From Candidatus Fermentibacterota bacterium (lineage in GTDB: Bacteria > Fermentibacterota > Fermentibacteria > Fermentibacterales > JCC-6), in contig WJMA01000027.1 of assembly GCA_014728175.1 (NCBI GenBank), positions 1 to 54,613 of the forward strand: a stretch of 54,613 nt of DNA, read 5' to 3'. Numbering within the stretch: the stretch's first letter is position 1; every line of letters begins with the position of its first letter. The notes below the pieces were generated by a model, which was given only the letters and a program-made list of their open reading frames with translations, was not told where the DNA came from and did no database searches. The position numbers were made by a program, and so were the translations under genes. This document shows positions 10,597 to 50,591 of this stretch, piece after piece.

Positions 10597-11436
10597 ATGA
10601 GAATACCCACCATGCAGGAGCTGCTGAAGGCCGGCGTCCACTTCGGTCATCAGGAGCGGCGTTGGAACCCCAAGATGAAGCCATACATCTTCATGGCTCG
10701 TAATGGGATACATATAATCGACCTCAAGAAGACCAGCAGCATGCTGGAGGATGCGGCCAACCTGGTCAGCAAGACCGTTTCCGATGGAAAGTCCATCCTC
10801 TTCGTATCCACAAAGAAACAGGGACGGGAATGTGTCCGGGAGCAGGCCCAGAGATGCGGCCAGTTCTACATGACGGAGCGTTGGCTGGGCGGCACCCTCA
10901 CCAACTTCCAGACCGTATGGAAGAGCGTGAAGAGGTTGGAGGCGCTGGAGAGAGCTGAGGAGAAAGGATTTCCTCCAAATCTTACCAAGAGAGAGGTGTT
11001 GCAGAAGGTACGGGAGAAACAGAGGCTGCAGAAGTATCTGGCTGGCATACGGGGCATAGAGGATCTGCCCGGGGCGGTAGTGGTGATCGATGTGAAGAAG
11101 GAGCAGATAGCGGTGCGTGAGGCCCGAAAGCTGGAGATACCCTGCGTGGCTCTGGTGGACACGAATTGCGACCCCACGTTGGTCAACTATCCCATACCCG
11201 GTAACGACGACGCAATCAAGTCGATTTCTCTCATCGTGCAAACGTTGGCGGACTTCGCTTTGCTGGGCGGCGAGGGAAAGGACGCTCCCCGGGAGGCTCC
11301 GGAGGAAGGCGGGGAGCAGGAGGCTGCCGAAGAGACCTCCGAGGCTTCCGAGCCTGAGGGTGACTCCAACGAAGAGACCGACGGCGAGGAGGCCGAGGCA
11401 CCGGCTTCCGAAAAGCCTGGAAAGGACGAGAGCTGA
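10597..11436 (+). CDS. rpsB: 30S ribosomal protein S2 with acidic C-terminal tail
   Basis: Residues 1-230 are a normal S2 ('[28 protein letters not shown]', '[22 protein letters not shown]', '[29 protein letters not shown]'). The last ~47 residues are an extension made almost only of Glu, Ala, Ser, Pro and Asp, predicted disordered. Such tails occur in several candidate phyla and Bacteroidetes relatives. Total length is 279 residues. It heads the rpsB-tsf-pyrH-frr run, with tsf starting 2 bases after its stop. Confidence 0.97.
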
Positions 11437-11438
11437 TC

Positions 11439-12035
11439 ATGGCTGTAGACGCGAAGCAGGTGAAGGAGCTGAGAGACATCTCCGGAGCGGGCGTGATGGA
11501 TTGCAAGCAGGCCTTGCAGGAGACCGACGGCGACATGGACAGCGCGCTCCGCTATCTGCGGGAGCAGGGCGTCAAAATAGCCTCCAAGAAGGCCGGCCGG
11601 GAGGCCGGAGAGGGAAGGGTGCATTCCTACATCCACGGTGACGGCAAGATCGGCGTTCTGGTCCAGGTGAACTGCGAGACCGATTTCGTGGCCCGCAACG
11701 ACCAGTTCAAGGACTTCTGCAAGAAGCTGGCCATGCAGATCGCGGCCAGCAACCCGCTGGTGATAGACAGGGAAGACCTGACGGAGGAACAGGTTCGAAC
11801 CGAGAAAGAGATTCTGCTGGCTCAGCTGAAGGATTCCGACAAGCCCGACGACATAAGGGAGAAGATAGTATCCGGCAGGTTGGAGAAGTACTACGCCGAG
11901 GTGTGCCTGCTGGATCAGGAATGGGTACACGACAGCTCGGAGGGTACGGTCGGGGACGTGCTTGCCGATCTGGTGGCCACTATCGGTGAGAACATGGTCG
12001 TAAAGAACTTTGCGAGGTTCGAGGTCGGCTCCTGA
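11439..12035 (+). CDS. tsf: Elongation factor Ts
   Basis: EF-Ts is the guanine nucleotide exchange factor for EF-Tu. The UBA-like N-terminus ('VKELRDISGAGVMDCKQALQETDGDMDSALRYLREQG') and the core 'GRVHSYIHGDGKIGVLVQVNCETDFVARND' with its TDFVA motif are present. At 198 residues it is the short form, as in Thermus, with one core subdomain rather than the ~280-residue enterobacterial form. Its stop overlaps the pyrH start. Confidence 0.97.
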   Translation: MAVDAKQVKELRDISGAGVMDCKQALQETDGDMDSALRYLREQGVKIASKKAGREAGEGRVHSYIHGDGKIGVLVQVNCETDFVARNDQFKDFCKKLAMQIAASNPLVIDREDLTEEQVRTEKEILLAQLKDSDKPDDIREKIVSGRLEKYYAEVCLLDQEWVHDSSEGTVGDVLADLVATIGENMVVKNFARFEVGS

Positions 12036-12763
12036 TGGAAGGGGAGCCACCGTCCGCTTCCAGATTCCTTCTCAAGCTTAGCGGTGAGTTGCTCGCAGCC
12101 GAGTCGGGAAAGGGGCTGAGCCCCCCCCGGGTGGATTCCTACGCCGCCGAGATAGCCGCGATACTTACCCGAGGACACCAATTCGCCGTAGTGGTGGGCG
12201 GGGGCAATTTCATAAGGGGCAGAGAGCTGCAAGGTTTCGGAGCCGTTCCCGCCGATTACATGGGGATGATAGCGACCGTGATCAACGCCGTTGCCCTGGG
12301 GGACGCGGTGGAGCGTGCCGGAGGCCGGGCGACGGTTCTGTCGGCGTTACCGGTACAAGGAATCGCGGAAAGCTTCGACCCCATCCGGGCCTCCGAGCTG
12401 ATGGGCTCGGGTACCGCCGTTTTATGCGGTGGAGGTACGGGCAACCCCATGGTGACGACCGACACGGCGGCGGCGCTCAGGGCGGTCCAGACCGGCTGCG
12501 ACATGCTCCTCAAGGGCACGAAGGTAGACGGAGTCTACGACAGCGACCCCGAGACCTCCCCCAACGCCCGGCGTTTCGATAGACTTAGTTACGATGAGGT
12601 TATCCGGAAGAGGCTAGGGGTCATGGATCTACCGGCGATAGCGATTTGCCGGGACGCCGATCTGCCGGTAGTGGTGTTCGATGCCTGGTCGGCGGACAAC
12701 GTCTCGAAGGCCGTGTCCGATCCGACCCTGGGAACCGTTATTGACAGGGGGAATGAGTCATGA
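12035..12763 (+). CDS. pyrH: UMP kinase
   Basis: This enzyme phosphorylates UMP to UDP in pyrimidine nucleotide synthesis. It belongs to the amino acid kinase fold: 'FLLKLSGELLA', 'VVVGGGNFIRG' and 'DYMGMIATVINAVALGDAVE', then 'LCGGGTGNPMVTTDTAAALRA' and 'LLKGTKVDGVYDSDPET'. Length is 242 residues. ATG at 12035 shares a base with the tsf stop; the stop in turn overlaps frr (ATGA). Confidence 0.97.
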   Translation: MEGEPPSASRFLLKLSGELLAAESGKGLSPPRVDSYAAEIAAILTRGHQFAVVVGGGNFIRGRELQGFGAVPADYMGMIATVINAVALGDAVERAGGRATVLSALPVQGIAESFDPIRASELMGSGTAVLCGGGTGNPMVTTDTAAALRAVQTGCDMLLKGTKVDGVYDSDPETSPNARRFDRLSYDEVIRKRLGVMDLPAIAICRDADLPVVVFDAWSADNVSKAVSDPTLGTVIDRGNES

Positions 12764-13317
12764 TCGACAGCTTGTTGGAGGAGCTACGCCAGAATCTCAG
12801 GAAATCCGTAAAGAGCACCGCCCACCAGATGGCGGTGGTGAGGACCGGCAAAGCCAGCCCCGCCCTGCTGGAAGGCATAAGGGTGGAGTGTTGGGGGGAA
12901 AGGCTTCCTCTCAAGCAAGTGGCCGGCGTGTCGGCTCCGGAGCCCAGCCTGCTGGTGATACAGCCCTACGACCAGAATACCGCCCAAGATGTGGCCAAGG
13001 CCATCGAGGCATCGGATCTGGGCTTGAGGGCCAACGTCGATGGGGGGATCGTAAGGATTCCCATACCCAAGCTTTCCGACGAGAGACGGGAGGAGCTCGT
13101 ACGCCAGGTAAGAAAGATGGCCGAGGACGGCAAAACGGCGATAAGGAACATTCGCAGGGACGCCAACGACTCTCTGAAGTCGGCCTCCAACGGCAGCGAG
13201 ATTACCGAGGACCAGGAGTACAGGGCGATGGAGAGGGTCCAGAAGGTCGTAGACGAGTCCATAGAGGAGATAGACAAGATACTTGCAGCCAAGGAGCGTG
13301 AGATAAGAGAGGTCTGA
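12760..13317 (+). CDS. frr: Ribosome recycling factor
   Basis: RRF splits post-termination ribosomes together with EF-G. The 185-residue protein shows the helical-bundle motifs 'VRTGKASPALLEGIRVECWGERLPLKQVAGVSAPEPSLLVIQPYD', 'NVDGGIVRIPIPKLSDERREELV' and the C-terminal helix 'ESIEEIDKILAAKEREI'. It follows pyrH by ATGA overlap, as in most bacteria. Confidence 0.97.
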   Translation: MIDSLLEELRQNLRKSVKSTAHQMAVVRTGKASPALLEGIRVECWGERLPLKQVAGVSAPEPSLLVIQPYDQNTAQDVAKAIEASDLGLRANVDGGIVRIPIPKLSDERREELVRQVRKMAEDGKTAIRNIRRDANDSLKSASNGSEITEDQEYRAMERVQKVVDESIEEIDKILAAKEREIREV

Positions 13318-13321
13318 GGGC

Positions 13322-14050
13322 TTGGGTCTCGACGAAAGCCTGCCCGCGCACGTGGGCATAATAATGGACGGAAACGGCCGATGGGCCCGGAAGCGGGGGC
13401 TTCTCCGCATCGAGGGTCATCGGGCCGCAGAGAGATCGATCCACGAGGCGGTCGAGGGTTGTGGAGAGCGGAGCGTCGGGTACCTGACCCTCTACGCGTT
13501 CTCCACGGAGAACTGGAAAAGACCTTCCGCCGAGGTCAGCTTCATAATGAAACTGCTCTCGAGGTTCCTGGAGAGGAACGTCGACGACCTCGACCAAAAC
13601 GGGGTCCGGATAAGGGCCACGGGAAGGCTGGACGATCTTCCCGAAGGCCCCAGGAGAGATCTGGAAAGGGCGATGAAGCGGACCGCGGCCAACGACGGGC
13701 TCCACCTGATCCTGGCCCTCAGCTACGGCGGCAGATCGGAGATCCTGGATGCGGTAAGGAGGATCGCTTCGGAGGTGTCCCGGGACGAGCTGTCTCCTTC
13801 CGAGCTCACCATGGGAACCATTTCCTCCCGCCTCTACCTTCCCGACGTCCCCGATCCAGACCTGATAATAAGGACCAGCGGCGAGATGAGGCTGTCCAAT
13901 TTCCTTCTCTGGCAGTCCGCCTACTCCGAGCTCTACTTCACCGATGTCCTGTGGCCCGACTTCAGAAAGGAGCACCTGTTCGAGGCCCTCGATGACTACG
14001 CCGGCCGAAGCAGACGATTCGGGTCGCTTTCCCGGGACTCGGATAATTGA
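13322..14050 (+). CDS. uppS: Undecaprenyl diphosphate synthase
   Basis: This cis-prenyltransferase makes the C55 lipid carrier for peptidoglycan and other envelope glycans. Conserved motifs are 'HVGIIMDGNGRWARKRG' (catalytic Asp), 'GYLTLYAFSTENWKRP', 'LALSYGGRSEI', 'PDLIIRTSGEMRLSNFLLWQSAYSELYFTDVLWPDF'. Length is 242 residues. The start is TTG at 13322, 4 bases after frr. It ends in an overlap with cdsA (TTGA). Confidence 0.96.
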   Translation: MGLDESLPAHVGIIMDGNGRWARKRGLLRIEGHRAAERSIHEAVEGCGERSVGYLTLYAFSTENWKRPSAEVSFIMKLLSRFLERNVDDLDQNGVRIRATGRLDDLPEGPRRDLERAMKRTAANDGLHLILALSYGGRSEILDAVRRIASEVSRDELSPSELTMGTISSRLYLPDVPDPDLIIRTSGEMRLSNFLLWQSAYSELYFTDVLWPDFRKEHLFEALDDYAGRSRRFGSLSRDSDN

Positions 14051-14871
14051 GGGACTTTTCCGCCCTACCGACAAGGCTCCTGGCCGCGCTGGTGGGGCTG
14101 TCGCTGTTCGCAGCCGCCGTGTTGCCGTCCTGGCCGGCGGTTACCGTGGTCTTCTTCGCCCTAATCGGGGGTAGGGGGGCTTACGAGGCCTCCCGTTTGC
14201 TGGACCCGGCTCTGTCCAGGGTGGCCGCCTGGGGCACCGGCACGGCCTGTGCCGGAGCCACCGTGGCCGTAAGCATCCGCTGGCCGTTCTTCCCCGCGTT
14301 CCTTCTGCTGCCCCTGGTGGTTCAGGGTGCGTTCCATCTGATGGAGCGGGGTCCGGACGAAGCGGGTAAGGGAATCGCCGGGGTGGGAGGCATATCGCTG
14401 GTCCTGGCTCTGGGAATGGGTCTGTTGTGCAGGCACCGGATCGAGGCGGCGGGATTCTTCCCCGTACTTATCCCGTTCTTCATCTGCTGGTTGGGAGATA
14501 CCGCGGCCTACTTCACGGGTTGCGCCTTCGGCAGGCACAAGCTCCTTCCCCGGGTCAGCCCCAACAAATCGTGGGAGGGATTCTTCGCGGGTCTCGTCGG
14601 GTCGATGGCTGGAGCTATGGTGGCCGGTCATCTGGCCGCTGGTCTTCCGGCCTGGGAGATGGCGGTCCTGGGTCTGGCCGGGGGTTTGGTCGCCGTGGTG
14701 GGAGATTTGATTGAATCCGCCCTGAAGCGCGACGCCGGGGTAAAGGACAGTGGAAAGCTCTTGCCGGGGCACGGCGGCGTGCTGGACCGTTTCGACAGCG
14801 CGGTCGCGGTGGCCCCCCTGACCTGGGTCTGGCTGGTCGCCGACGGTCTTCTCGGGGGTGGTGCGGTCTGA
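14047..14871 (+). CDS. cdsA: Phosphatidate cytidylyltransferase
   Basis: CdsA makes CDP-diacylglycerol, the precursor used by PgsA encoded at 4767. The protein is polytopic (seven or eight hydrophobic segments) and carries the signature 'GDTAAYFTGCAFGRHKLLPRVSPNKSWEGFFAGLVGS' and 'GDLIESALKRDAGVKDSGKLLPGHGGVLDRFDS'. Length is 274 residues. It starts at TTG 14047 overlapping uppS. The stop overlaps the probable CTG start of dxr. Confidence 0.96.
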   Translation: MRDFSALPTRLLAALVGLSLFAAAVLPSWPAVTVVFFALIGGRGAYEASRLLDPALSRVAAWGTGTACAGATVAVSIRWPFFPAFLLLPLVVQGAFHLMERGPDEAGKGIAGVGGISLVLALGMGLLCRHRIEAAGFFPVLIPFFICWLGDTAAYFTGCAFGRHKLLPRVSPNKSWEGFFAGLVGSMAGAMVAGHLAAGLPAWEMAVLGLAGGLVAVVGDLIESALKRDAGVKDSGKLLPGHGGVLDRFDSAVAVAPLTWVWLVADGLLGGGAV

Positions 14872-15980
14872 GGAAGATAGCCGTTCTCGGTAGCACCGGG
14901 TCGATAGGAAAGCAGGCCCTGGAGGTGATAGAGAGATCTCCCGGCCTGGAGGTCTGGTCTCTTCTGTGTGGGCGTAACGCGGAGCTGGTCTTGCGGCAGG
15001 CGAGAAAGCTGAGCCCGAAGGTGGTCGCGGTTGCCGATCCCCGGTTCGCCCCGTCGGACGTTCTATCCGGCCCCGATTCCATGCGGGCCTGCATTGAGGG
15101 AGCGGACATGGTTCTCAACGCCATAGTGGGATTCGCGGGAATCAGGGCCAGCATTCTCTGCTCCAAGCTGGACGTTCCACTCGCCCTGGCCAACAAGGAG
15201 AGCCTGGTAACGGGGGGACCGCTTCTGGGGGATTTCGTCCGCAGGGGAATGATCGTACCCGTGGACAGCGAGCACAGCACGATCTTCCGGTGTCTGGCCG
15301 GAGAGACCAAAAGACCGCTGGGTCTTCTTCTCACCGCCAGCGGGGGGGCCATGAGGGATACACCCCTGGACGAGCTGAGGCTGGCGGATGCGGCCCAGGT
15401 CCTGGACCATCCCACGTGGAGCATGGGAGCCAGGATAACCGTGGATTCCGCCAGCATGGTCAACAAGGCCTTCGAGGTGGTGGAGGCCGGATGGTTGTTC
15501 GGAGCGGATCTGGAGATAGACGTGGCCATACACCGGCAGAGCATAGTCCACTCCCTGGTCCGTCTTGCCGACGGTTCGTGGAAGGCCCTGCTGGGAGCGC
15601 CGGACATGAGGGTTCCCATCCAGTACGCCCTACAGTGGCCGGAGGGAGAGCTATACCCCGTTCTGGAGGGGGACCGTCCGACCGGGTGGGAGGAGCTGAC
15701 CTTCGAAAGGGTCGATAACCACCGTTATCCCGCCTTCGAGACCATCGTGTCCGCCGTAGTCGACGATCACAGCTACGCCGTAGCTGCCAACGCGGCGGAC
15801 GAGGTGGCCGTGGAGGCTTTCCTGCAGGGCAGACTGAGGTTCGGAGGGGTGGTCCGGGTGATAGAGGAGACCCTTCGGAGGCACGATCCGACCGGGTTGG
15901 TCGATTTGGAAACCATCGAGTCCATCGACAGCGACTCCCGAGCTGTCGCGGAGGAGGTGGTAAGGGTTCTATGCTTATAG
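14868..15980 (+). CDS. dxr: 1-deoxy-D-xylulose 5-phosphate reductoisomerase (probable CTG start)
   Basis: Dxr is the committed NADPH-dependent step of the MEP isoprenoid pathway, supplying substrate for UppS. The core is intact: 'LANKESLVTGGPLL', 'PVDSEHSTIFRCL', 'LTASGGAMRD', 'ATWSMGARITVDSASMVNKAFEVVEAGWLFG'-type blocks with metal ligands, and the C-terminal 'NAADEVAVEAFLQG'. The first standard start codon is GTG at 14925, but that would remove the NADPH-binding 'KIAVLGSTGSIGKQALEV' encoded from 14868. The codon at 14868 is CTG, overlapping the cdsA stop as CTGA, with GGGGGTGG 6 bases before it. I take CTG as the start (370 residues). Confidence 0.93.
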   Translation: MRKIAVLGSTGSIGKQALEVIERSPGLEVWSLLCGRNAELVLRQARKLSPKVVAVADPRFAPSDVLSGPDSMRACIEGADMVLNAIVGFAGIRASILCSKLDVPLALANKESLVTGGPLLGDFVRRGMIVPVDSEHSTIFRCLAGETKRPLGLLLTASGGAMRDTPLDELRLADAAQVLDHPTWSMGARITVDSASMVNKAFEVVEAGWLFGADLEIDVAIHRQSIVHSLVRLADGSWKALLGAPDMRVPIQYALQWPEGELYPVLEGDRPTGWEELTFERVDNHRYPAFETIVSAVVDDHSYAVAANAADEVAVEAFLQGRLRFGGVVRVIEETLRRHDPTGLVDLETIESIDSDSRAVAEEVVRVLCL

Positions 15981-17212
15981 TTCTGGCCGTCGCTCTGGGC
16001 CTGGGCGTGATAATCCTGTTCCACGAGTTCGGTCATTTCATCGTGGCCAAGTTGGTGGGTCTGGAAGTGGAGAGGTTCTCCATAGGATTCCCCCCCCACG
16101 TGGTCAAGCTGAGGAAGGGTGAAACCGAATACTGCGTGGGTGCGATACCCCTGGGCGGCTATGTGAAGGTGGAACTGGGAACCTCCGGCGAGGAGGTCTC
16201 GACCACTCCCTGGTACCTGAGGATGCTGGTAGTGCTGGCCGGTCCCGGGGCCAACCTCTTGCTGACCGCTCTGTTACTGTTTCTGGTTCTGGGCGTCGTG
16301 GGAAGGGAGGTGTCCGTGCTCTACCCGGTCGTTGAGAACCCGGACAATGTCCTGGGCCTTGCTCCGGGAGACACGGTGGTGTCGGTGGAAGGTCGCCCCG
16401 CAGATAACTACTCCGACGCCATCCGGTCGCTGCAGCAGCACCGTAGTGGCACCATGGTGGTGGGATCGGAGGCCGGGCGGAGAGAGGTTTCGTACTCGCT
16501 TTCCCCGGATGAGGTAATACCCTTCGAGCCCCTGGTTCCTCCGGTCGTAGGCGAGGCCGCGGTGGGAACGCCGGCCTTCGAGGCCGGAATAAGAAACGGC
16601 GACAGCCTGGTCTCGGTGAACGGCAGGCCGGTGAAGAGCTGGGCGGACCTGACCGCGCTGGTCCAGGACTCAACGCTGTATCCGCTCAACATAGCTTACG
16701 TTCGCGACGGCAAGGTGCATTCCGCCGAGTTGACCCCGATCGTGGTGCAGGGCAACAGAAGGATCGGTGTGGTTGCCCGTACCCGGACCAGAAGGATGCT
16801 CTTTCCCCTGCCCCGGGCGGCGGCCCTGGGGGTGGAAGCTGCGCTGAAGGGCGCGGCCGGATACTACCGGACCCTGGTGGGGCTGTTCACCCGGCCCCGG
16901 GAGCTGGTACGCATGTCCGGGGGACCGGTCTATCTGGCCGAGACCCTTGGACAGCAGGCCGGTCTGGGTGTGGCTCGGCTTCTGGAGACCGTGGCGGTCA
17001 TCTCGCTGGCCGTGTTGGTGTTCAATCTGTTGCCGATTCCCGTGCTGGACGGGGGCCAACTCATCTTCCTGGCCTGCGAGGGAGTAAAGGGCCGTCCCCT
17101 CTCCAGAAGGAGCGTCAGGATAGCACAGCAGGCGGGAATATTCGTCATCCTGGTCATATTCGTCCTGGTGGTAAGCAAAGACATTTCAAGGCTTTACACC
17201 CGGGTGTGGTGA
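15971..17212 (+). CDS. rseP: Site-2 protease RseP family, two PDZ domains
   Basis: This is an intramembrane zinc metalloprotease that cleaves anti-sigma factors and signal peptides. The zinc motif HEFGH lies in the first membrane helix (near residue 18) and the third ligand region 'NLLPIPVLDGGQL' near residue 351. Two PDZ domains lie between residues ~115 and ~275 ('GLAPGDTVVSVEGRPADNY' and 'GIRNGDSLVSVNGRPVKSW'). Length is 413 residues. The start overlaps dxr by 10 bases, and dxr-rseP adjacency is common. It ends 11 bases before a convergent gene. Confidence 0.95.
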   Translation: MLIVLAVALGLGVIILFHEFGHFIVAKLVGLEVERFSIGFPPHVVKLRKGETEYCVGAIPLGGYVKVELGTSGEEVSTTPWYLRMLVVLAGPGANLLLTALLLFLVLGVVGREVSVLYPVVENPDNVLGLAPGDTVVSVEGRPADNYSDAIRSLQQHRSGTMVVGSEAGRREVSYSLSPDEVIPFEPLVPPVVGEAAVGTPAFEAGIRNGDSLVSVNGRPVKSWADLTALVQDSTLYPLNIAYVRDGKVHSAELTPIVVQGNRRIGVVARTRTRRMLFPLPRAAALGVEAALKGAAGYYRTLVGLFTRPRELVRMSGGPVYLAETLGQQAGLGVARLLETVAVISLAVLVFNLLPIPVLDGGQLIFLACEGVKGRPLSRRSVRIAQQAGIFVILVIFVLVVSKDISRLYTRVW

Positions 17213-19634: not shown

Positions 19635-19708
19635 CCCTCCCGCGCGGTTGGGACGGTCGTCGAAGTCGGAGGTGTGAGATCTCCCCTTTCAGGTTCTTCC
19701 TTTCGTCG

Positions 19709-22633
19709 TTGATTCTGTTTACCGGTCTGGCGTCTGCCACCACGTACGGGCGCAGCAAGGTCCAGACATCCATGCCGAACTGGTGGGTGGTTCAGAGCCA
19801 GAACGTGACCATAGTCTATCCCCAGGGGTCGGAGACGGTGGCAGAGAGCCTGATGGCTATTTCCGAGAAGGAGATAGATGAGCTGGGGGCGTTCTTCGGT
19901 TACATCCCCGCGCATCGTATTCCCATCGTCCTGTACACCTCGCCCGCCAGCTTCCGCCAGACCGACATAACCACCCAGGAAATAGGTGAGGCTGTGGGAG
20001 GCTTTACGGAGTTCTTCAAGGGACGGGTGGTGGTTCCCTACACCGGGGTCTGGTCCGAGTTCCGTCACGTCGTTACCCATGAGCTTAACCACGCCCTGGT
20101 CATTGATATGCTCTACGACACGTCGATCGAGCGCATCGTGCGCTCCAACGCTCCCCTGTGGACGCTGGAAGGGCTGGCCGAGTACACCTCCGAGGGCTGG
20201 AACGCCGACGCGGAGGCCGAGTTCAGGGACATGGTCATATCCAACCGGATGGTTCCCATCCGACAGCTCTCCCGACGGGCGGACTACATAGTCTATACGG
20301 AGGGACAGGCCCTGTACCATTTCATCGCCACCAGGTACGGGGAAGACAAGCTCAGGGAGTTCGTTCGCAACCTGGGAGCGTCGGGGCAGCTGGATCGGGT
20401 GGTGGATAACGTTTTCAACATGACCGTGGAGCAGCTTAGCGACAAGTTCATCGAATGGGCCCGGGAAACGTATTGGTCCGAGCTGGCCTGGAGTGAGGGG
20501 CCGGAGGACGTGGCCAGGCCGCTTCCCGGTGGCGACCAGGTGTACCAGATGGGAACCGTCGTGTCCCACGACGGCCGCTACGTCGCCGGCGTGGAGCAGC
20601 ACAAGGGCAACTACGCGCTTACGGTCAGGTCCACCATAGACGGCCGGGTCGTCGACCGGCCGTTCGAGGAGGGAGGAGTAAGCGACCTCGGGATCTCGCC
20701 CGCCTACCGGGTCTGTACCTTCTCGCCCGGCGGCGACTCTCTGGCTCTGGTCTATCACGAGTTGGGTTGTGACCGGCTCGCGGTGCGCAAGATCGACGGG
20801 GACCTGACGGATCTACCGGTAAGATTCGACCTGATAAGGGACCCCTCCTGGTCGCCCGACGGAAGGTACATAGCCTTCGCGGCCCTGGAGAACGCCCAGC
20901 TGGACGTATACCTGTGGGACACTTCGTCGCGAACCCTGTCCAGGCTGACCGAGACCTCCGAGGGGGAGAGGGATCTCAACTGGACCGACCGCGGCCTGCT
21001 GGCCAGCGTGGAGTCCGCATCCTGTGAAACCTGCCGGATAATGGCTTACCGGCCCGTAGGAGAGGCGGAGGTGCTGTTCGCCGATTCCGCCGAGATCAGG
21101 TATCCCGTATGGACGAACGAGGGTCTTCTCTTCCTCTGGAAGAGGGAGGGCCCGGCGGACGTATACCTCTACAGGCCCGATTCCGGCGAGGTGGTCCAGA
21201 CCACGAACCTCTACCGGAGCATCGATTGCCTTTCCTGGGCCGAGTCCTCCAAAACCATGGTTTTTCTTTCCTCCAACTGGTCGGGCGGAAACGTATTCAT
21301 AGCCGACGGGATTACCTCCAGGAGGGTCAGCTACCGGCCGGGCAGGACCATCGAGGTCACCCGCCCGGCCCCTTCCCGACCGAACGCTTCGTCCGATGAT
21401 GAAGGCTCCCCTGCGGATTCCACGCGGAGCCGGCCGGCGCCCCGGGCTGGACCCGAACCCCCTCCGGGAGGCGAGAGACCGCCGGGGCCCCGCCGCCAGG
21501 GAGAGGCGGGCGTCCCGAGATCATCGTACCTCAGGATAAGCCCCTACTCCTCCAAGCTGTCGCTGGACTACGTAAACGCCCTGGCCTCTTTCGACTCCTT
21601 CCTGGGATTGGCGGGGTATACCCAGTTCGTGTTCAGCGACGTCCTGGCCCATCATAGGCTCTATCTGAGCGTCGATTTCAACGGCAGCGTCAACGACGCG
21701 GACGCCGTCGCCAGCTACAGCTACCTTCCCATGAGAACCGACCTGGGAACCACGCTGTTCAGGCAGACCAGCAGGTATCTGTTCAAGTTCGAGGACGGGC
21801 ACACCGAAGAGGTTAGAGACGTCAACCACGGTGGAGCCGCGGGAGCCCTGTATCCCTTCAGCCCGGCCTTTAAGGTCGAGGCGGACGCTGGATACAGGAG
21901 GATCAGCCGGGTGGGAACGTGGAACTCGGACGCGGATTTCAGGGCGGACGTCTTCTTCTCCTCGTTGGGGCTGGTGGTGGATAACGCGAAGTACGGATAC
22001 GTCGGTCCCAGGATAGGAAGCAGGCTCAGGATGGGCATCGAGGCCGCCCCCGGCATAGACGGATCGGCAAGCTACTACGTGGCCAGCACGGATCTCCGGC
22101 ATTACGTCTGGGTCTCATCCAACGTAAGCCTGGCCATGAGGCTGGCTGGGGCCACCAGCTGGGGCCAGGATGCACCGGAGTTCTTCCTGGGCGGAGCAGT
22201 CCCCCACAGGTTGATATGGGGCGAGGTGGAGGAGTTGGGTGATCTGGTGGGCTTCTACACCAACTACGCGGACATACTTCGCGGCTACGACTACGCCGAG
22301 TTCAACGGCAGAAGGTACGTCTGCGCCAATCTGGAGATGAGGGTGCCCTTCGTGAAGCGGATGGACCTCGGTGCGCCCCTCCCCATGACCCTGAGCAACA
22401 TCAGAGGAGCGCTGTTCGTTGACGCCGGAACCGCGTTCGACGACGTCCACGATTGGCGGGGGGCAGAGGTCGACGGCGGCTACCGGCTGAGGGACATCAA
22501 GCTGGGGTTCGGCATAGGTTTCAGGTTGAACCTGGGCTACTTCGTGCTCAAGGAGGACACGGCCTGGAGAACGGATCTGCGCAGTGTCTCCCATCACCCG
22601 AGACACTACCTCACACTCGGGGCCGAGTTTTGA
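19709..22633 (+). CDS. Gluzincin-TolB propeller-Omp85-like barrel protein
   Basis: This is a 974-residue envelope protein in three parts. Residues ~20-260 form a Peptidase_MA-like gluzincin domain with HELNH at 124-128 and the third ligand in 'EGLAEY' from residue 154. Residues ~270-545 carry TolB/WD40-like propeller blades ('DPSWSPDGRYIAFAAL', 'DLNWTDRGLLA'). After a Pro/Arg/Ser-rich linker (~550-600), residues ~605-974 look like an outer-membrane barrel: 'LRGYDYAEFNGRRYVCANLEMRVPF' near 855, 'IRGALFVDAGTAFDD', and a final Phe. TTG at 19709 gives a poor signal peptide. The preceding in-frame codons (19679-19708, ISPFRFFLSS) would complete one, preceded by GGAGGTG at 19668-19674, but with no standard start codon. 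A near-cognate ATC start or a frameshift is possible. Confidence 0.78.
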   Translation: MILFTGLASATTYGRSKVQTSMPNWWVVQSQNVTIVYPQGSETVAESLMAISEKEIDELGAFFGYIPAHRIPIVLYTSPASFRQTDITTQEIGEAVGGFTEFFKGRVVVPYTGVWSEFRHVVTHELNHALVIDMLYDTSIERIVRSNAPLWTLEGLAEYTSEGWNADAEAEFRDMVISNRMVPIRQLSRRADYIVYTEGQALYHFIATRYGEDKLREFVRNLGASGQLDRVVDNVFNMTVEQLSDKFIEWARETYWSELAWSEGPEDVARPLPGGDQVYQMGTVVSHDGRYVAGVEQHKGNYALTVRSTIDGRVVDRPFEEGGVSDLGISPAYRVCTFSPGGDSLALVYHELGCDRLAVRKIDGDLTDLPVRFDLIRDPSWSPDGRYIAFAALENAQLDVYLWDTSSRTLSRLTETSEGERDLNWTDRGLLASVESASCETCRIMAYRPVGEAEVLFADSAEIRYPVWTNEGLLFLWKREGPADVYLYRPDSGEVVQTTNLYRSIDCLSWAESSKTMVFLSSNWSGGNVFIADGITSRRVSYRPGRTIEVTRPAPSRPNASSDDEGSPADSTRSRPAPRAGPEPPPGGERPPGPRRQGEAGVPRSSYLRISPYSSKLSLDYVNALASFDSFLGLAGYTQFVFSDVLAHHRLYLSVDFNGSVNDADAVASYSYLPMRTDLGTTLFRQTSRYLFKFEDGHTEEVRDVNHGGAAGALYPFSPAFKVEADAGYRRISRVGTWNSDADFRADVFFSSLGLVVDNAKYGYVGPRIGSRLRMGIEAAPGIDGSASYYVASTDLRHYVWVSSNVSLAMRLAGATSWGQDAPEFFLGGAVPHRLIWGEVEELGDLVGFYTNYADILRGYDYAEFNGRRYVCANLEMRVPFVKRMDLGAPLPMTLSNIRGALFVDAGTAFDDVHDWRGAEVDGGYRLRDIKLGFGIGFRLNLGYFVLKEDTAWRTDLRSVSHHPRHYLTLGAEF

Positions 22634-23352
22634 CCAACGAGGTTCTATGGCTGCTATTCATGACCGGTACCCTGCTGGTGGTGCTGGGGGTGTTCCGCTG
22701 GTTCGGTCGGGAGGGTCTGCTGGCCCTGATCGCCGCGGCCATAATCGTCTGCAATCTGCAGGTAATGAAGATAACCACCCTGTTCGGCGTTACGGTGACT
22801 CTGGGGAACGTGCTCTACGGAACCGTATTCTTCTGCACCGATCTCCTCAACGAGATGTACGGACCGTCCGCCGCCAGAAAGGGAGTTCTGATAGGCTTCG
22901 TGTCCATGCTGTTCATGACCGCCGTGATGCAGGTGGCTCTTCTGTTCGGAGTCGCCGACGATCCCTGGGCGGTGGAGGTGCAGGAGTCGATGCGGACCAT
23001 ATTCGGGTTCATGCCCAGGTTGGCTCTGGCCAGTCTGGGAGCATACCTGCTCAGCCAGTTCCACGATGTGTGGGCATTTCACTTCTGGCGCCGGAAGACC
23101 TCCGGAAGACACCTCTGGCTCCGCAACAACCTCTCCACCATTGTGAGTCAGCTGATCGATACCCTGGTCTTCTGCACCATCGCATTTTTGGGGGTTCTGG
23201 CCAGGGAACATTTTATGCAGGTTATGGTAACGACATACGTGATGAAGCTGGTGGTGGCGGCGTTCGATACACCGTTCATGTACCTGGGCAGGAAGCTGGC
23301 CGGCGCCGGGTACGGAGTGGAAGGGAACGTCTCCCGACCCCACCGGATTTGA
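22630..23352 (+). CDS. Queuosine precursor transporter (YhhQ/vut_1 family)
   Basis: Six or so transmembrane helices and the family motif 'LGNVLYGTVFFCTDLLNEMYGPSAARKGV' near residue 60 identify a VUT_1/YhhQ protein, which imports queuosine precursors (preQ0/preQ1-type) in studied bacteria. The later 'QLIDTLVFCTIAFLGV' and 'YVMKLVVAAFDTPFMYLGRKL' also fit. The frame extends upstream inside the preceding gene. TTG at 22630, overlapping its stop as TTGA, gives the natural 240-residue protein. Substrate is inferred from the family; no queuosine synthesis gene is in the window. Confidence 0.87.
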   Translation: MTNEVLWLLFMTGTLLVVLGVFRWFGREGLLALIAAAIIVCNLQVMKITTLFGVTVTLGNVLYGTVFFCTDLLNEMYGPSAARKGVLIGFVSMLFMTAVMQVALLFGVADDPWAVEVQESMRTIFGFMPRLALASLGAYLLSQFHDVWAFHFWRRKTSGRHLWLRNNLSTIVSQLIDTLVFCTIAFLGVLAREHFMQVMVTTYVMKLVVAAFDTPFMYLGRKLAGAGYGVEGNVSRPHRI

Positions 23353-23362
23353 GAGGGGGAGG

Positions 23363-24202
23363 TTGTTGAGGCCCGTTGCTTTGGTCTGGACGGCATGTCT
23401 GATCGTGGCATGCCCCTCGGCGCTTGGTTGGATATGTCCCGCCTGCTCCACGGAGAGCGAAGGTCTTCTCTGCACAGACTGCGGTCTACCCCGCCCGCCC
23501 GAGGGGATGGGGTACGCCCCGGCCTGCACCGTCGAGGTGCGGGGGGCCGCCGTACGGGTGGAGAGCTTCTTCGTAGACTCCTTCCCGGTCACCTACAGGG
23601 AGATCCTGCCATGGATGAACGAGAACGTTTCCACCCTGGAGGACATGGCGGGCATCGTAACCGGCCAGTACGACGCCAACCTGCAGTTTCTCAGATACAC
23701 CCCGTTCACGGGGAACAGCGAAGGCACGGGAATCACCGTTCCCTCCAACTGCTTCTCGCTTCCGGTGGGCTCCTTCACCTACGAGGGAGCGGCGTCCTAC
23801 CTGCAATCCAGGGGGGCCAGGCTACCCACCACCGCGGAGATACTGGCCGCAAAGCGTCAGGGCCTGGTCGACCGATTCGACGTGGAGTCGGTCATGCGGA
23901 GGTTCGCGGCCATGATGCGCAGCACCATGGGTTCCATGCTGGGTGACCTTGCCAACCAGGCGATGTTCGCGGGATACAGCACGGTCGACGAGCGGCTGAT
24001 GTGGGAATGGACGACCGACGCCTGGCGTCAGCCGCCGGATTCGATATACCGGCTCGACGCGCCCTACAGGGTAATAGTCAGGCCCACGGAGGAAGCCGAG
24101 CTGGGCGCCGCGGGCAGTGACATGGGTTATTTCAACGTTACTTTCAGGGGGGTAGTGCCGATCCTGACCGGGGAAGGGCAGGATCGACCCGAAGGGGGAT
24201 AG
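23363..24202 (+). CDS. Secreted SUMF1/FGE-like protein with zinc ribbon
   Basis: The 279-residue product has an N-terminal signal peptide ('RPVALVWTACLIVACPSALG'), then a four-cysteine ribbon (CPAC...CTDCG) near residues 25-41. The domain beyond it resembles the formylglycine-generating-enzyme/sulfatase-modifying fold: 'VESFFVDSFPVTYREILPWMNEN' matches 'v-sF-iD-tEVT-~qY--F', 'ASYLQSRGARLPTTAEILAAKRQG' matches the 'RLPTEAEWE-AAR' block, and 'MWEWTTDAW' matches 'VWEWtsd-'. The Cys residues of true FGE are not obvious, so a binding role is more likely. It lies in an envelope-gene run; TTG start at 23363. Confidence 0.65.
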   Translation: MLRPVALVWTACLIVACPSALGWICPACSTESEGLLCTDCGLPRPPEGMGYAPACTVEVRGAAVRVESFFVDSFPVTYREILPWMNENVSTLEDMAGIVTGQYDANLQFLRYTPFTGNSEGTGITVPSNCFSLPVGSFTYEGAASYLQSRGARLPTTAEILAAKRQGLVDRFDVESVMRRFAAMMRSTMGSMLGDLANQAMFAGYSTVDERLMWEWTTDAWRQPPDSIYRLDAPYRVIVRPTEEAELGAAGSDMGYFNVTFRGVVPILTGEGQDRPEGG

Positions 24203-24206
24203 ACTT

Positions 24207-24806
24207 ATGTGGAAGATGATCATTCTCCTGGCGGCGGTCGTAGTCCTTGGCGTATTGGGCTGCGGAGGTAGAACTGTAACCAGAACCGAAACCGACACTG
24301 TAACCGACCTCAGCGGAAGATGGAACGATACGGATGCCCGTATGGTGGCCGACTCGATGGTCGAGCAATGTCTCTCCGGCGATTGGCTGGACGAGTACGT
24401 GAATCGAAGGAGCGGGGAAAGCTACCAGAGCAAGCCGACCATAGTGGTGGGAAGCGTGTTCAACAGGAGCTCGGAGCACATAGGCACCGAGGTCTTCATG
24501 AACGAGATCGAGCGGGCCCTTCTGGAGTCCGAACGGGTCCAGATAGCCGCCGGAAGGGGTGAGGACGTGGAGATCAGGGAGGAAAGAGCGGAGCAGCAGA
24601 TGTTCGCCTCCCCGGAGACCGCGGCCAGCTTCGGCCGGGAGATCGGAGCGGACTACGTGATGATGGGCAGCGTCGACTCCATAGTTGACGAGGGAGGTGA
24701 AACCAGGGCCATATACTACCAGGTCAGCCTTCAGCTCATAGACGTTGAAACCTCCCTGAAGAGCTGGATGGGCAGCCTGGAGATAAAGAAGATCGTAGAG
24801 TGGTAA
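24207..24806 (+). CDS. LpoB-like lipoprotein (penicillin-binding protein activator family)
   Basis: The 199-residue lipoprotein has a signal peptide with lipobox 'VLGVLGC' (Cys near residue 19). The body follows the LpoB pattern: 'KPTIVVGSVFNRSSEHIGTEVFMNEIERALLESERVQIAA', 'ADYVMMGSVDSIVD' and 'YYQVSLQLIDVETSLKSW'. In E. coli LpoB activates PBP1b from the outer membrane; here only family membership is claimed. The next gene, a COG3014-like lipoprotein, overlaps by 7 bases, an association seen in several proteobacteria. Confidence 0.8.
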   Translation: MWKMIILLAAVVVLGVLGCGGRTVTRTETDTVTDLSGRWNDTDARMVADSMVEQCLSGDWLDEYVNRRSGESYQSKPTIVVGSVFNRSSEHIGTEVFMNEIERALLESERVQIAAGRGEDVEIREERAEQQMFASPETAASFGREIGADYVMMGSVDSIVDEGGETRAIYYQVSLQLIDVETSLKSWMGSLEIKKIVEW

Positions 24807-26116
24807 AACGCCCCACAAAGGCCTTCGTTCTCGGCTGTCTGCTTCTCTGGCTATTCGTCGGCTGCGGGTCCCACACCACCCGCATGCAACCGGTAAGGGA
24901 CAGCCTCCGAAGCGGCAGCTACGACGAGGCCCTCCAGCGCTTCCAGGACGAGTCTCCAATCGACAGCACGGGGAAGGATCGTCTGCTTTTCCTTATGGAG
25001 AAGGGCAATCTGCTGCGGCTGGCCGGCAGGTATCGGGTGGCGGAGGAGCTGCTGCTGGAAGCCGATCTACTCAGTGACGTCCAAACCGGCACCTCGGTGG
25101 GCGAAGAGGTGGGGGCGATTCTGACCAGCGACGTTTCCAGACCCTTCAGGGGAGCCGACTACGAGAAAGTCTTTATCAACTATTGCCTGGCCTCGTGCTT
25201 TGCCTCCCGGGGGCTGGTGGAGGACGCTCTGGTCGAGTGCAGGAGGCTTACCGAGAAACTCAACGTTTTCAACCAGCGCTACAAGCGGGATAACGTGTAC
25301 ATCGACGACGCCCTAGCCAGATACCTCACCGGGGTCCTTTACGAGGCGGCCGGAGATCTGGACGACGCCCTGGTCGCCTACAGGAACAGCCTCCGGGTTT
25401 ACCGGGAAGGCTACTACGATACTCCCACTCCGGATCAGCTGGTTCTGGACGTACAGAGGTTGTGTCTGACCCTGGGATTCCTTGACATGTACGAGGAGTA
25501 CGGGAACGCCTTCCCCGAGATACGCTACGACCCGGAGGATCTGCACGCCGGTTACGCCGACCTGGTGGTGGTGGTCGAGGAGGGATTCGTTCCCCCCAAG
25601 CGCTCCCGGGAGTACACGTCTTTCACCCGGCACAGGATCTACAGGGTTAGTCTGCCCGCGATCCCCCACACTCCCCTTCCTCCCCGCAGCCTTAGCGTAG
25701 CCGCCGGCGAGGGGCCGACCGTTCCCTGCTGGCTGGCCGAGAACGTGGCCGCCATAGCCCGGAAGAACCTGGAGGATCACGCTACCCGGGACATCGCGAG
25801 GGCGGTGGCGAGGTTCGTGGCCAAGGGGGTGGTATCGGAGGTGGGCGAAGAGATAGCCGAAGAAATTTCCGGAGAGGAAGACGGTGTCTGGTCGGAGGCG
25901 ACCGGCACCCTTTTAAGTATAGTGGGCGCGGCCACGGAGCAGGCCGATCTAAGGGCGTGGTCCACCCTTCCTCGGCGGATATACATTGCCCGGCTGAGGT
26001 TACCTCCCGGGGAGCACCTGATCAGGGTGACCGAGTCCGGAAGGACCCTATCCGCGCCCGTCGAGGTCGAGTTGCATGCCGAAGAGGTTCGGGCGGTGTT
26101 CCTGTCCGTTATCTGA
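24800..26116 (+). CDS. COG3014-like lipoprotein with TPR-type helices
   Basis: The 438-residue product starts with a lipoprotein signal ('LLLWLFVGCGS', Cys near residue 22). Residues ~30-240 are paired helices of TPR type ('RSGSYDEALQRFQDE', 'NLLRLAGRYRVAEELLLEADLL', 'VLYEAAGDLDDALVAYRNSLRVYREG'). The C-terminal part has 'AENVAAIARKNLEDHATRDIARAVARFVAKGV' and ends in a PEGA-like beta segment ('LPPGEHLIRVTESGRTLSAPVEVEL'). This layout matches COG3014 proteins. The GTG start overlaps the LpoB-like gene, implying joint function at the outer membrane or cell wall. Confidence 0.72.
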   Translation: MVKRPTKAFVLGCLLLWLFVGCGSHTTRMQPVRDSLRSGSYDEALQRFQDESPIDSTGKDRLLFLMEKGNLLRLAGRYRVAEELLLEADLLSDVQTGTSVGEEVGAILTSDVSRPFRGADYEKVFINYCLASCFASRGLVEDALVECRRLTEKLNVFNQRYKRDNVYIDDALARYLTGVLYEAAGDLDDALVAYRNSLRVYREGYYDTPTPDQLVLDVQRLCLTLGFLDMYEEYGNAFPEIRYDPEDLHAGYADLVVVVEEGFVPPKRSREYTSFTRHRIYRVSLPAIPHTPLPPRSLSVAAGEGPTVPCWLAENVAAIARKNLEDHATRDIARAVARFVAKGVVSEVGEEIAEEISGEEDGVWSEATGTLLSIVGAATEQADLRAWSTLPRRIYIARLRLPPGEHLIRVTESGRTLSAPVEVELHAEEVRAVFLSVI

Positions 26117-41349: not shown

Positions 41350-41378
41350 TTGACGGTTGCGGACGGGGCGATTATCCC
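41350..41378 (+). promoter_or_regulatory. Promoter for the C25 peptidase gene
   Basis: TTGACG (41350-41355) and TATCCC (41373-41378) are separated by 17 bases, about 48 bases before the ATG at 41426. The -35 box matches that of the serA promoter. Confidence 0.45.
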
Positions 41379-41425
41379 ATCTTCAGATACTTATCCCCGT
41401 TGCGGACCTTTCCGGGAGGATTGCC

Positions 41426-43480
41426 ATGCGTATCGTTACTCTTCTCGCCCTGCTCGCGGTTTACTCCGCTCTTGCCGGTTCGATGAGCCTGGATCTCAGC
41501 TTCGATCCGTCCGATTTGGATATCCTCAACCGGGCGGGCTACCAGAGGTTGATCCAGAAGGGATGCGTACCCTGGGGAGAGCCGGGTGAGCCCCTTCTGC
41601 CCCACCGGATAGTGTCATTGGTCGTTCCTCCGGACGCCTGCAACCTCCGGGTGAGCGTGGAATCGAAAACCACCGAGTCCCTGCCGGGAAGCTACAGGGT
41701 ACAACCGGTGGCAGTGCCCAGGCCGATAGGGTTGCGGGCGGCGGGGCCTGCCGTTCTACATGGGGACCCGTCGATCTACCGACGGAGCGCCCCCTGGCCG
41801 GAGGCAACCGTCGGGCGGGTCCACTCCGGCAGGAAGGGCGGCTTCGGGATAGTGAGCTTCGTGGTCTGCCCCTACAGCTACCTTCCCTCCACGGGCGAGC
41901 TGTTTCTGCATAGGGAGATCGTGCTCAACGTCGACTGGGATTCGGACCACCGCGGTCCGACCCTTTGCGCCCGGCAGATAGACGCCGCGGCCGGGCAGCT
42001 GGAGCATTGGGTCGATAATCCGCTGGACCTGGAGAGGTACAGACCGCCTTCCCGGGGATTCTACAGAGACTTCGACTACCTGGTGGTTACCTCGGAAGAC
42101 TACTCCGACTCCTTCAGCTACTACGTCGACTACAAGAACGACGCGGGAGTACTCACCGACCTGGCGTACGTGGAGAACATACTCTCATCCTCCCCGGGTT
42201 GGGACGACGCGGAGAAGCTGCGCAACTACATAATCGACCGTTACCAGAACGACGGCATCCAGCACGTCCTGCTGGCGGGGGACGAGAACGTGCTGCCCAC
42301 CAGAGAGGTGTACCTGGAGTGTGAGGGATACTCGGATAACGCATCGTGCGATCTTTACTTCAGCGACCTCGACGGAACGTGGGACGCCAATGGAGACCAC
42401 GATTACGGCCAGCCCGGAGACAGCCTCGACCTCTACGCCGACGTCAGCGTGGGCCGGGCCCTGTTCTCAGACGCCGACGAGGCGGCGGTTTTCGTGACCC
42501 GCAGCATAATGTACGACGACCATCCACCCGCCGGCGATTGGCAGAGCAGGGCGATGCTCTGTGGAGCGGGCCTGTTCTCGGGCTATACCGGGGCCAAGGT
42601 CTGCGATTCCATAGCCGCGAGGCTGCCCGGTGACTGGGAGATAAACAAGGCCTACGAGCCGGCGATGTCCGACGGTTTTACGACCCACATAGACGTGATA
42701 GAGAGCGGAACGAACTGGAACCACTACGCGGGGCACGGCAACGATTACGGGGTCTACTGGCAGACCAGCCCCACCGATATGATGACCAACTCCATCGCCC
42801 GTGATCTGAGCAACGGCGACAAGGCCGGCTTCCATCACTCCATCGGTTGCATGCCGGGTTCTTTTCATCACAGCTACGACTGCTGCGCCGACGCCCTGCT
42901 TCACAACGCCGGAGGGGGAGCGGTATCGGTGATGTTCAACTCCAGCTACGGCTGGGAGGGGTACCTTCCAGAGATGGGGGTCAGCGAGTGGATGTGCGTT
43001 TACCTGACCGAGGAGGTGTTCCAGCTTTACAACAACCTGATCGGCCCCGCGTTCGCCACCTCCAAGGACCGCAGGGTTCCGTTGTGGTCAGGGGGCCGGG
43101 ACCGGGAGCTGTACTGCATTATGTGCTGGAACGCTTACCACGATCCCACGCTGAGGGTCCTGTCGTCGGAGACCGGTACGCCCCCCGAGCGCAACGCGGT
43201 CGCTCCAGCGTTCTCCGGGTACCTGGGTAGGCCTGCGCCCAATCCGGCGAGAAGCGGAGAGACCGTGTCCTTCAGAGTGGTCTCGCCCTCCGGTGACGCT
43301 ACGGTGCGGGTCTACGACCTGGCGGGTAGAGTCGTCTGGGAAGCGGCCGCGCCGGGTGAGGAGCTGGGAATCTGGGACTTGACAGACTCATCGGGCAGCC
43401 CCGTCAGCCCGGGAGTTTACTTCGTAGGCTTGTCCACCCGCGGTCCGGACGCTTACCGCAAGCTGGTGGTCATGCCCTAG
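41426..43480 (+). CDS. Gingipain-type (C25) secreted peptidase with T9SS-like sorting domain
   Basis: The 684-residue protein has a signal peptide ('RIVTLLALLAVYSALAGS') and a propeptide-like beta region to ~210. The C25 caspase-like catalytic domain starts with 'FDYLVVTSEDY' and 'GIQHVLLAGDENVLPTREV'. The expected catalytic His is in 'YAGHGNDYG' (His437) and the Cys in 'SIGCMPGSFHH' (Cys475), with spacing close to that of RgpB. The last ~80 residues ('PAPNPARSGETVSFRVVS', 'VRVYDLAGRVVW', 'SPGVYFVGL', 'RKLVVMP') form a FlgD-Ig/type A sorting domain. GGGAGGA precedes ATG 41426. Its TAG stop shares the palindrome CTAG with the stop of the convergent gene. Confidence 0.88.
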   Translation: MRIVTLLALLAVYSALAGSMSLDLSFDPSDLDILNRAGYQRLIQKGCVPWGEPGEPLLPHRIVSLVVPPDACNLRVSVESKTTESLPGSYRVQPVAVPRPIGLRAAGPAVLHGDPSIYRRSAPWPEATVGRVHSGRKGGFGIVSFVVCPYSYLPSTGELFLHREIVLNVDWDSDHRGPTLCARQIDAAAGQLEHWVDNPLDLERYRPPSRGFYRDFDYLVVTSEDYSDSFSYYVDYKNDAGVLTDLAYVENILSSSPGWDDAEKLRNYIIDRYQNDGIQHVLLAGDENVLPTREVYLECEGYSDNASCDLYFSDLDGTWDANGDHDYGQPGDSLDLYADVSVGRALFSDADEAAVFVTRSIMYDDHPPAGDWQSRAMLCGAGLFSGYTGAKVCDSIAARLPGDWEINKAYEPAMSDGFTTHIDVIESGTNWNHYAGHGNDYGVYWQTSPTDMMTNSIARDLSNGDKAGFHHSIGCMPGSFHHSYDCCADALLHNAGGGAVSVMFNSSYGWEGYLPEMGVSEWMCVYLTEEVFQLYNNLIGPAFATSKDRRVPLWSGGRDRELYCIMCWNAYHDPTLRVLSSETGTPPERNAVAPAFSGYLGRPAPNPARSGETVSFRVVSPSGDATVRVYDLAGRVVWEAAAPGEELGIWDLTDSSGSPVSPGVYFVGLSTRGPDAYRKLVVMP

Positions 43481-50527: not shown

Positions 50528-50591
50528 GCTCGTTCCTCCCATCTGGGAAGTGTTTAATCTCGAAGTCGCTCATCGGATTGGCTAAACCGAG

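Follow-up and report, generated by a model that had tools for sequence, protein, structure and literature searches.

A predicted gluzincin protease, TolB-like propeller and Omp85-type barrel in one polypeptide of a Fermentibacterota bacterium, and loss of the zinc site in one class of its relatives

The WD40-Omp85 subfamily, defined by Heinz and Lithgow in 2014 (PMC4104836), is the closest known group to the protein described here, as compared with the published description of that subfamily rather than with its sequences. The protein is encoded at positions 19,709 to 22,633 of a 54,613-nucleotide contig of Candidatus Fermentibacterota bacterium (WJMA01000027.1, assembly GCA_014728175.1), the whole of which is called the window below, and carries a gluzincin metalloprotease domain, a TolB-like propeller and an Omp85-type barrel in one chain, referred to here as the fusion. 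In the parts of PMC4104836 that deal with them, WD40-Omp85 proteins are likened to a fusion of BamA and BamB. As in these proteins, the propeller of the fusion lies N-terminal to an Omp85 barrel and no POTRA domain is present; WD40-Omp85 proteins are, however, described there with an N-terminal propeller only and with conservation at the genus level, as is stated for all subfamilies except BamA, TamA and Lipo, whereas the fusion adds a zinc protease ahead of the propeller and is spread over the phyla of the Fibrobacterota-Chlorobiota-Bacteroidota (FCB) group.

Other described proteins share single features with the fusion. The Omp85 "Metallo" subfamily, called a metalloprotease in the relevant part of PMC4104836, likewise has an enzyme domain on an Omp85 barrel, but the family it carries, PF00149, is a phosphoesterase family, whereas the domain of the fusion is a gluzincin peptidase and PF00149 is absent from its Pfam matches; the word "peptidase" is absent from the main text of PMC4104836. 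PlpD, a patatin-Omp85 protein, also places an enzyme ahead of the barrel, and according to the section of PMC11116518 that covers it this enzyme domain remains in the periplasm; PlpD differs in combining a lipase with one POTRA domain. BamA and TamA, the best structural matches, have the same 16-strand barrel with the L6 RGY/F, E-x-R-x-P and F-x-D-x-G motifs, but have POTRA domains and are encoded separately in the same genome. The peptidase domains of M9 collagenases and the M1 aminopeptidases share the gluzincin fold and an HExxH motif with a distant Glu, but at about 13% identity, and those enzymes are secreted or soluble and have no barrel. TolB has the same type of propeller (Z 24), but the fusion lies far below the cut-off of the TolB equivalog model (39.8 bits against 343.15).

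Whether such a protein counts as an Omp85 protein depends on the definition used: the passages of PMC4104836 on this point define the superfamily by its barrel and accept members without POTRA domains, and the definition found in PMC11116518 asks for at least one POTRA domain. WD40-like Omp85 proteins are listed in the latter among those not well characterised. An extended BAM from Flavobacterium johnsoniae is the subject of PMC12611786, where a BAM of this kind is said to correlate with complex outer-membrane proteins in FCB bacteria; the fusion is not mentioned in the relevant passages of that paper. Our literature search found no paper on a protease-propeller-Omp85 fusion or on a pseudoprotease of this type, and among the papers it covered only PMC4104836 and a mention in PMC11116518 touch such Omp85 proteins. 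The fusion is a real, old and widespread member of a known but apparently unstudied kind, and the new part is an apparently single loss of the zinc site, read from sequence comparison, in most of the genomes read from one class of Bacteroidota.

Domain architecture of the fusion

The features of the fusion and its gene, all on the + strand, are as follows.

19668-19738, +: ribosome-binding-like GGAGGT (19668-19673), in-frame ATC (19679) and a signal-peptide-like segment ending in ...LILFTGLASA (sequence reading)
19709-22633, +: open reading frame of the three-domain protein, 974 amino acids with a TTG start as reported; the true start is probably ATC 19679
19742-20512, +: gluzincin (Peptidase_MA-like) metalloprotease domain, residues 12-268 (profiles, model, fold matches)
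20078-20092, +: HELNH zinc motif, H124, E125 and H128 (sequence and conservation)
20168-20185, +: EGLAEY with the third zinc ligand, E154 (sequence and conservation)
20549-21328, +: TolB-like beta-propeller, residues 281-540 (profiles, model, fold matches)
21347-21523, +: proline-rich disordered linker, residues 547-605 (predicted local distance difference test, pLDDT, under 50)
21524-22630, +: 16-strand Omp85-type barrel, residues 606-974 (profile, model, fold matches)
22277-22288, +: L6 motif LRGY, residues 857-860 (sequence, conservation, model)
22334-22348, +: E-x-R-x-P motif, E876, R878 and P880 (sequence and conservation)
22415-22429, +: F-x-D-x-G motif, F903, D905 and G907, as FVDAG 903-907 (sequence and conservation)

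The preliminary description, made from the sequence alone, had read the protein as a protease, a TolB-type propeller and an Omp85-like barrel, and profile and fold searches bear this out. The motifs it quoted lie where it placed them (HELNH 124-128, EGLAEY 154-159, LRGYDYAEFNG 857-867, FVDAGTAFDD 903-912 and a terminal Phe at 974). In Pfam, Peptidase_MA_2 matches residues 67-250 (E 4e-9, 36.9 bits against a curated cut-off of 32.4), PD40 matches with an E of 1e-4 (22.7 bits against 20.9), and Omp85 PF01103 matches residues 676-955 (E 2e-12, 47.6 bits against 24), which places the C-terminal part above the cut-off of an Omp85 family. The NCBIfam models for TolB, Omp85, TamL and BamA match in the same order along the chain, all below threshold; a Pfam match to UPF0164 was also sub-threshold and was not used. 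No Pfam POTRA match is found in the fusion, whereas POTRA is matched by both BamA and TamA of this genome; the fusion belongs to the Omp85 superfamily by its barrel only.

A full-chain structure predicted from an alignment of 70 sequences has a mean pLDDT of 86.4 and a predicted template modelling score (pTM) of 0.86, and shows a helical protease (about residues 12-268), the propeller, the disordered linker and the barrel, in that order. Counted from the strands listed for the model, 16 long strands span residues 618-971, in agreement with the barrel originally proposed, and the long loop that joins strands 11 and 12 holds LRGY, as is the case in Omp85 proteins. Fold searches with the full chain (Foldseek, VIA-align 2) matched BamA, TamA and TolB, including BamA 8bnz_A (Z 24.2, 308 residues aligned at 3.9 A) and TolB 2ivz_A (Z 24.0, 236 aligned at 2.5 A). 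Predicted alone (pLDDT 86.3), the protease domain is closest to the M9 peptidase domain of collagenase 8jt1_A (Z 18.7, 233 aligned at 3.6 A), and its other matches, namely M9 collagenases, one M30 peptidase and M1 aminopeptidases (Z 13-15), are gluzincins as well. Several of the BamA/Sam50 alignments begin at model residues 80-92, opposite the residues just ahead of the barrel of the solved chain, and the model hints that the protease may occupy the position of the last POTRA. The linker varies in length among relatives, and the barrel motifs are nearly invariant in the 70 sequences (R858 in 69, D905 in all 70, E876 in 69).

The start of the gene probably lies further upstream than reported, as far as can be read from the sequence. 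All 974 codons are open but the frame has no ATG start, and from the preceding stop (19631) to 19709 it holds no ATG, GTG or TTG. A GGAGGT sequence stands 5-6 bases ahead of the in-frame ATC at 19679; a start at this codon would lengthen the protein by ten residues, with a 20-residue signal-peptide-like N-terminus as the result, and relatives have a signal-peptide-like MKKALL.. stretch at the equivalent position.

Four proteins of the genome match PF01103. One is BamA, with POTRA repeats and a gene adjoining lpxD, lpxC-fabZ and lpxA; another is the POTRA-bearing Omp85 protein of a TamA-TamB pair, encoded directly 5' of tamB (TamB PF04357); the fourth, beside the fusion, is a partial match in a 340-residue protein. 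The fusion is the third Omp85 protein of the genome, beside BamA and TamA. The presence of both rules out the fusion as a replacement for either, and it is therefore a specialised third barrel.

Spread and shared history of the three domains

The preliminary description had treated the fusion as a peculiarity of this window, which it is not. At least 356 relatives were confirmed by a search of genome contigs, from which 80 loci were kept for listing. These come from Aegiribacteria/Fermentibacteraceae/Hyd24-12, Zixibacteria, Eisenbacteria, KSB1, Calditrichota, Neomarinimicrobiota, Ignavibacteria, Kapabacteria, Bacteroidota, Gemmatimonadota, Latescibacterota, Cloacimonadota, WOR-3 and others, and the named relatives span the FCB group. 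The 388 genomes sampled for the fusion were all at least 90% complete and were chosen with a bias towards relatives; a full-length profile at E 1e-60 found it in 135 of them and in 101 of 319 genera.

Of 72 distinct sequences collected without the use of motif patterns, 69 cover all three domains; the rest comprise a sequence cut at the end of its contig (L028), one with a frameshift (L029) and a 413-residue frame holding the protease alone. For 152 near-full sequences, the protease tree was compared with the barrel tree. The barrel tree has 83 supported splits, and 53 of the 69 well-supported protease splits are shared with it while 6 conflict; when tips were shuffled, at most 2 splits were shared. 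Because the two trees agree, the domains appear to have travelled together since one ancient fusion, and by these sequence comparisons the fusion is old, widespread and of single ancient origin.

In genome G040 (UBA5074; L029/L044/L054) the frame breaks between propeller and barrel, giving overlapping frames of 1081 and 510 codons; this may be an assembly error or a true split. Searches of plasmids for the fusion gave one weak match only, in Salinibacter.

Loss of the zinc site in one class

The fusion has the HExxH motif and downstream Glu of gluzincin (MA clan) peptidases. The 80 kept loci were retrieved by patterns in which the third zinc ligand was already specified and are uninformative on E154, but among the 72 sequences gathered without such patterns H124-E125-H128-E154 is kept in 70 of the 70 that cover the site (L028 and L029 do not), and it is kept in 39 of 39 further loci (L217-L255) outside the exceptional class described below. 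The tetrad is also present in 151 of the 152 near-full sequences. The exception, L185, pointed to a class with 148 genomes: a homologue is present in 118 of these at E 1e-25, and the protease profile finds a match in 131 at E 1e-5. The class is placed in Bacteroidota because ribosomal L2 of two of its genomes is nearest to 7jil or 9i5t and its full-length SprA, the translocon of the type IX secretion system (T9SS), has 6h3i as its nearest solved structure; we take 7jil and 6h3i to be from Flavobacterium johnsoniae, and our guess is that the class is Bacteroidia.

From the 131 positive genomes of this class we read 75, chosen as the best 30 by a site-less query, the best 30 by the active profile and 25 by hand, mostly weak; within loci L298-L325 a match was present in 27 of 28, with none in L306. 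Seventy of the 75 genomes have only copies without HExxH-E. A copy with HExxH-E occurs in the other five, four of which belong to one family, while the fifth also holds a site-less copy. In this last genome, G507, an intact-site copy and a site-less copy occur together (L323, L322).

The 30 site-less copies that were checked keep the R-G, E-x-R-x-P and F-x-D-x-G motifs of the barrel, and their N-terminal domain has a conserved GG (97-98), W151 and G155. A tree was built from propeller and barrel columns only and rooted at its midpoint; after duplicates and truncated sequences had been dropped, including most class loci of L256-L285, the 278 aligned rows came to 233 sequences, 186 with the site and 47 without, the latter representing the class. 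All 47 site-less copies fall in a single clade (support 0.96 and 1.0), and Fitch parsimony requires one change, as against at least 37 in each of 100 shuffles. Since HExxH-E is common to gluzincins at large, the direction would be from active to inactive, and the tree fits one loss of the zinc site while the architecture was kept. Loss of the zinc ligands in relatives, which the preliminary description had named as evidence against its reading, is therefore found, but in this one clade; in the relatives elsewhere the ligands are retained.

Retention of the architecture after loss of the site suggests a role of the N-terminal domain beyond catalysis. At a barrel identity of 0.30-0.36, the protease is the most conserved domain of active proteins, with an N-terminal identity of 0.37 against 0.30 for the propeller; in site-less proteins the values are 0.27 and 0.24, so that conservation of the N-terminal domain does not fall below that of the propeller and the dead domain appears to remain constrained, though less. 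For four site-less proteins Pfam reported no Omp85 match and no more than a PD40 repeat and a single peptidase match below cut-off; annotation pipelines are therefore likely to miss such members.

Proposed function, alternatives and gene neighbourhood

Both termini of the Omp85 barrel face the periplasm throughout the superfamily, so the protease and propeller would lie in the periplasm under the barrel. The reading that we favour, tentatively and at somewhat less than an even chance, is that of a secreted protein anchored in the outer membrane as a third Omp85 protein, in which the gluzincin protease and then the TolB-like propeller stand in the place of POTRA domains. Proteins that reach the barrel or stall there would be caught by this pair and trimmed or degraded at the zinc site, so that client capture and proteolysis would be coupled to an assembly-type barrel. 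Capture, and not cleavage, would be the indispensable part, because the whole machine persisted in one Bacteroidota clade whose zinc site was lost. Some points weigh against this proposal. The neighbouring genes vary between phyla, so that no conserved neighbour points to clients; the lower conservation of the N-terminal domain relative to the barrel in site-less than in active proteins fits relaxed constraint too; and the barrel could be merely an anchor. A more specific version, which we consider possible but doubtful, sees an FCB-wide third outer-membrane machine, an insertase that comes with its own quality-control protease and a propeller for docking, whose protease was turned once, in one Bacteroidota lineage, into a substrate-holding pseudoprotease that was kept class-wide.

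If the favoured reading is true, many FCB bacteria hold, next to BamA and TamA, a third Omp85 protein that includes a protease, and a single polypeptide joins outer-membrane protein assembly to proteolysis. The absence of the zinc site across the class is a natural test of the role of the N-terminal domain without cleavage, and on the pseudoprotease reading comparison of the two natural forms, active and site-less, could separate catalysis from client handling.

The nearest competitor, rather unlikely in our estimate, is a non-proteolytic assembly or scaffold factor in which the propeller and N-terminal domain serve as a BamB- or POTRA-type platform and proteolysis is a droppable accessory. 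The single loss of the site with the architecture kept, the many class genomes with site-less copies only and the TolB-like propeller all fit this, as does the comparison of WD40-Omp85 proteins to a BamA-BamB fusion in the pertinent part of PMC4104836. The position of the gene could be added: in Fermentibacterota and Eisenbacteria, though not in most other phyla, the fusion follows rseP, here behind the block rpsB-tsf-pyrH-frr-uppS-cdsA-dxr-rseP (10597-17212, + strand, neighbour annotation) with an opposite-strand TPR gene between, and closer behind rseP in Eisenbacteria and several Fermentibacterota. In many proteobacteria bamA sits after dxr-rseP, and by this analogy the slot is a hint of a bamA-like role. 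However, no loss of the zinc site was seen outside the site-less clade among the sequences read, and in active proteins conservation is highest in the protease, so catalysis seems to matter there. That the barrel is an anchor only, for a periplasmic protease of envelope housekeeping (acting on lipoproteins or cell-wall proteins, for example), would agree with the gluzincin fold and the absence of POTRA domains, yet the Omp85 signatures are as conserved as the zinc ligands, beyond what an anchor would need, and we regard this as the least probable of the readings. It is also improbable that the barrel exports its own protease and propeller to the cell surface in the manner of a type Vd secretor. 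The long, length-variable disordered linker between propeller and barrel would suit such export; against it, the patatin domain of PlpD, the model case, stays periplasmic as described in the relevant section of PMC11116518, the protease and propeller are folded domains ahead of an Omp85-type barrel, and the whole-chain pTM suggests a fixed arrangement in the model.

That the fusion assists the T9SS by maturing surface proteins, the C25 peptidases of the window among them, is very improbable in our view. Two C25-type proteins of the window have T9SS sorting tails (TIGR04183, 28.2 and 41.2 bits against 23) and are therefore T9SS substrates in this candidate phylum, and SprA is encoded in the same genome (G000:C65:138204). 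Across the 388 genomes, 122 have both the fusion and SprA, 13 the fusion only, 16 SprA only and 237 neither (phi 0.84); the corresponding counts within the exceptional class are 129, 2, 13 and 4 (Fisher p 0.0016), and site-less copies are frequent in genomes with the T9SS translocon. As a control, DUF5683, an unrelated FCB gene, gave counts of 101, 34, 14 and 239 with the fusion (phi 0.72), and because of this shared FCB ancestry accounts for much of the link to SprA. Three of the four double absences in the class come from one family, the fusion is missing from 13 of its 142 SprA-positive genomes, and in at least one near-complete sister genome, G001, the fusion is present while SprA gave no match. 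The fusion as a specific T9SS partner is unsupported beyond shared ancestry, given the control and the comparison within the class; a strict T9SS role is unlikely, and a loose link may exist. The two C25-type genes are as follows.

41357-43480, +: C25-type protein with T9SS sorting tail and PF01364 match
48989-50542, -: C25-type protein with T9SS sorting tail and PF01364 match

The genes directly downstream of the fusion are as follows.

22636-23352, +: Vut_1 (PF02592) gene of the queuosine-precursor-transporter type, beginning right behind the stop codon of the fusion
23363-26116, +: FGE-sulfatase-like, LpoB-like and TPR genes

An FGE-like gene is near the fusion in Fermentibacterota relatives as well. 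In other phyla, where neighbours were named by Pfam for tested representatives and otherwise by sequence reading, they are an AsmA-like/DUF748 gene with rnr, a GWxTD protein, DsbD, or lpxH-type, radA and tgt genes; differing in this way among phyla, they suggest no client. A GWxTD-cluster protein (the domain was found in the representative, L070) lies at most 2 kb downstream of the fusion, mostly adjoining it, in relatives of the KSB1/Calditrichota type (L061, L064, L067, L069, L070, L088 and L116). In Ignavibacteria/Bacteroidota relatives a giant gene of the AsmA-like/DUF748 type, two of which were tested with Pfam, lies with rnr upstream of the fusion (L074, L081, L090, L093, L100 and L125).

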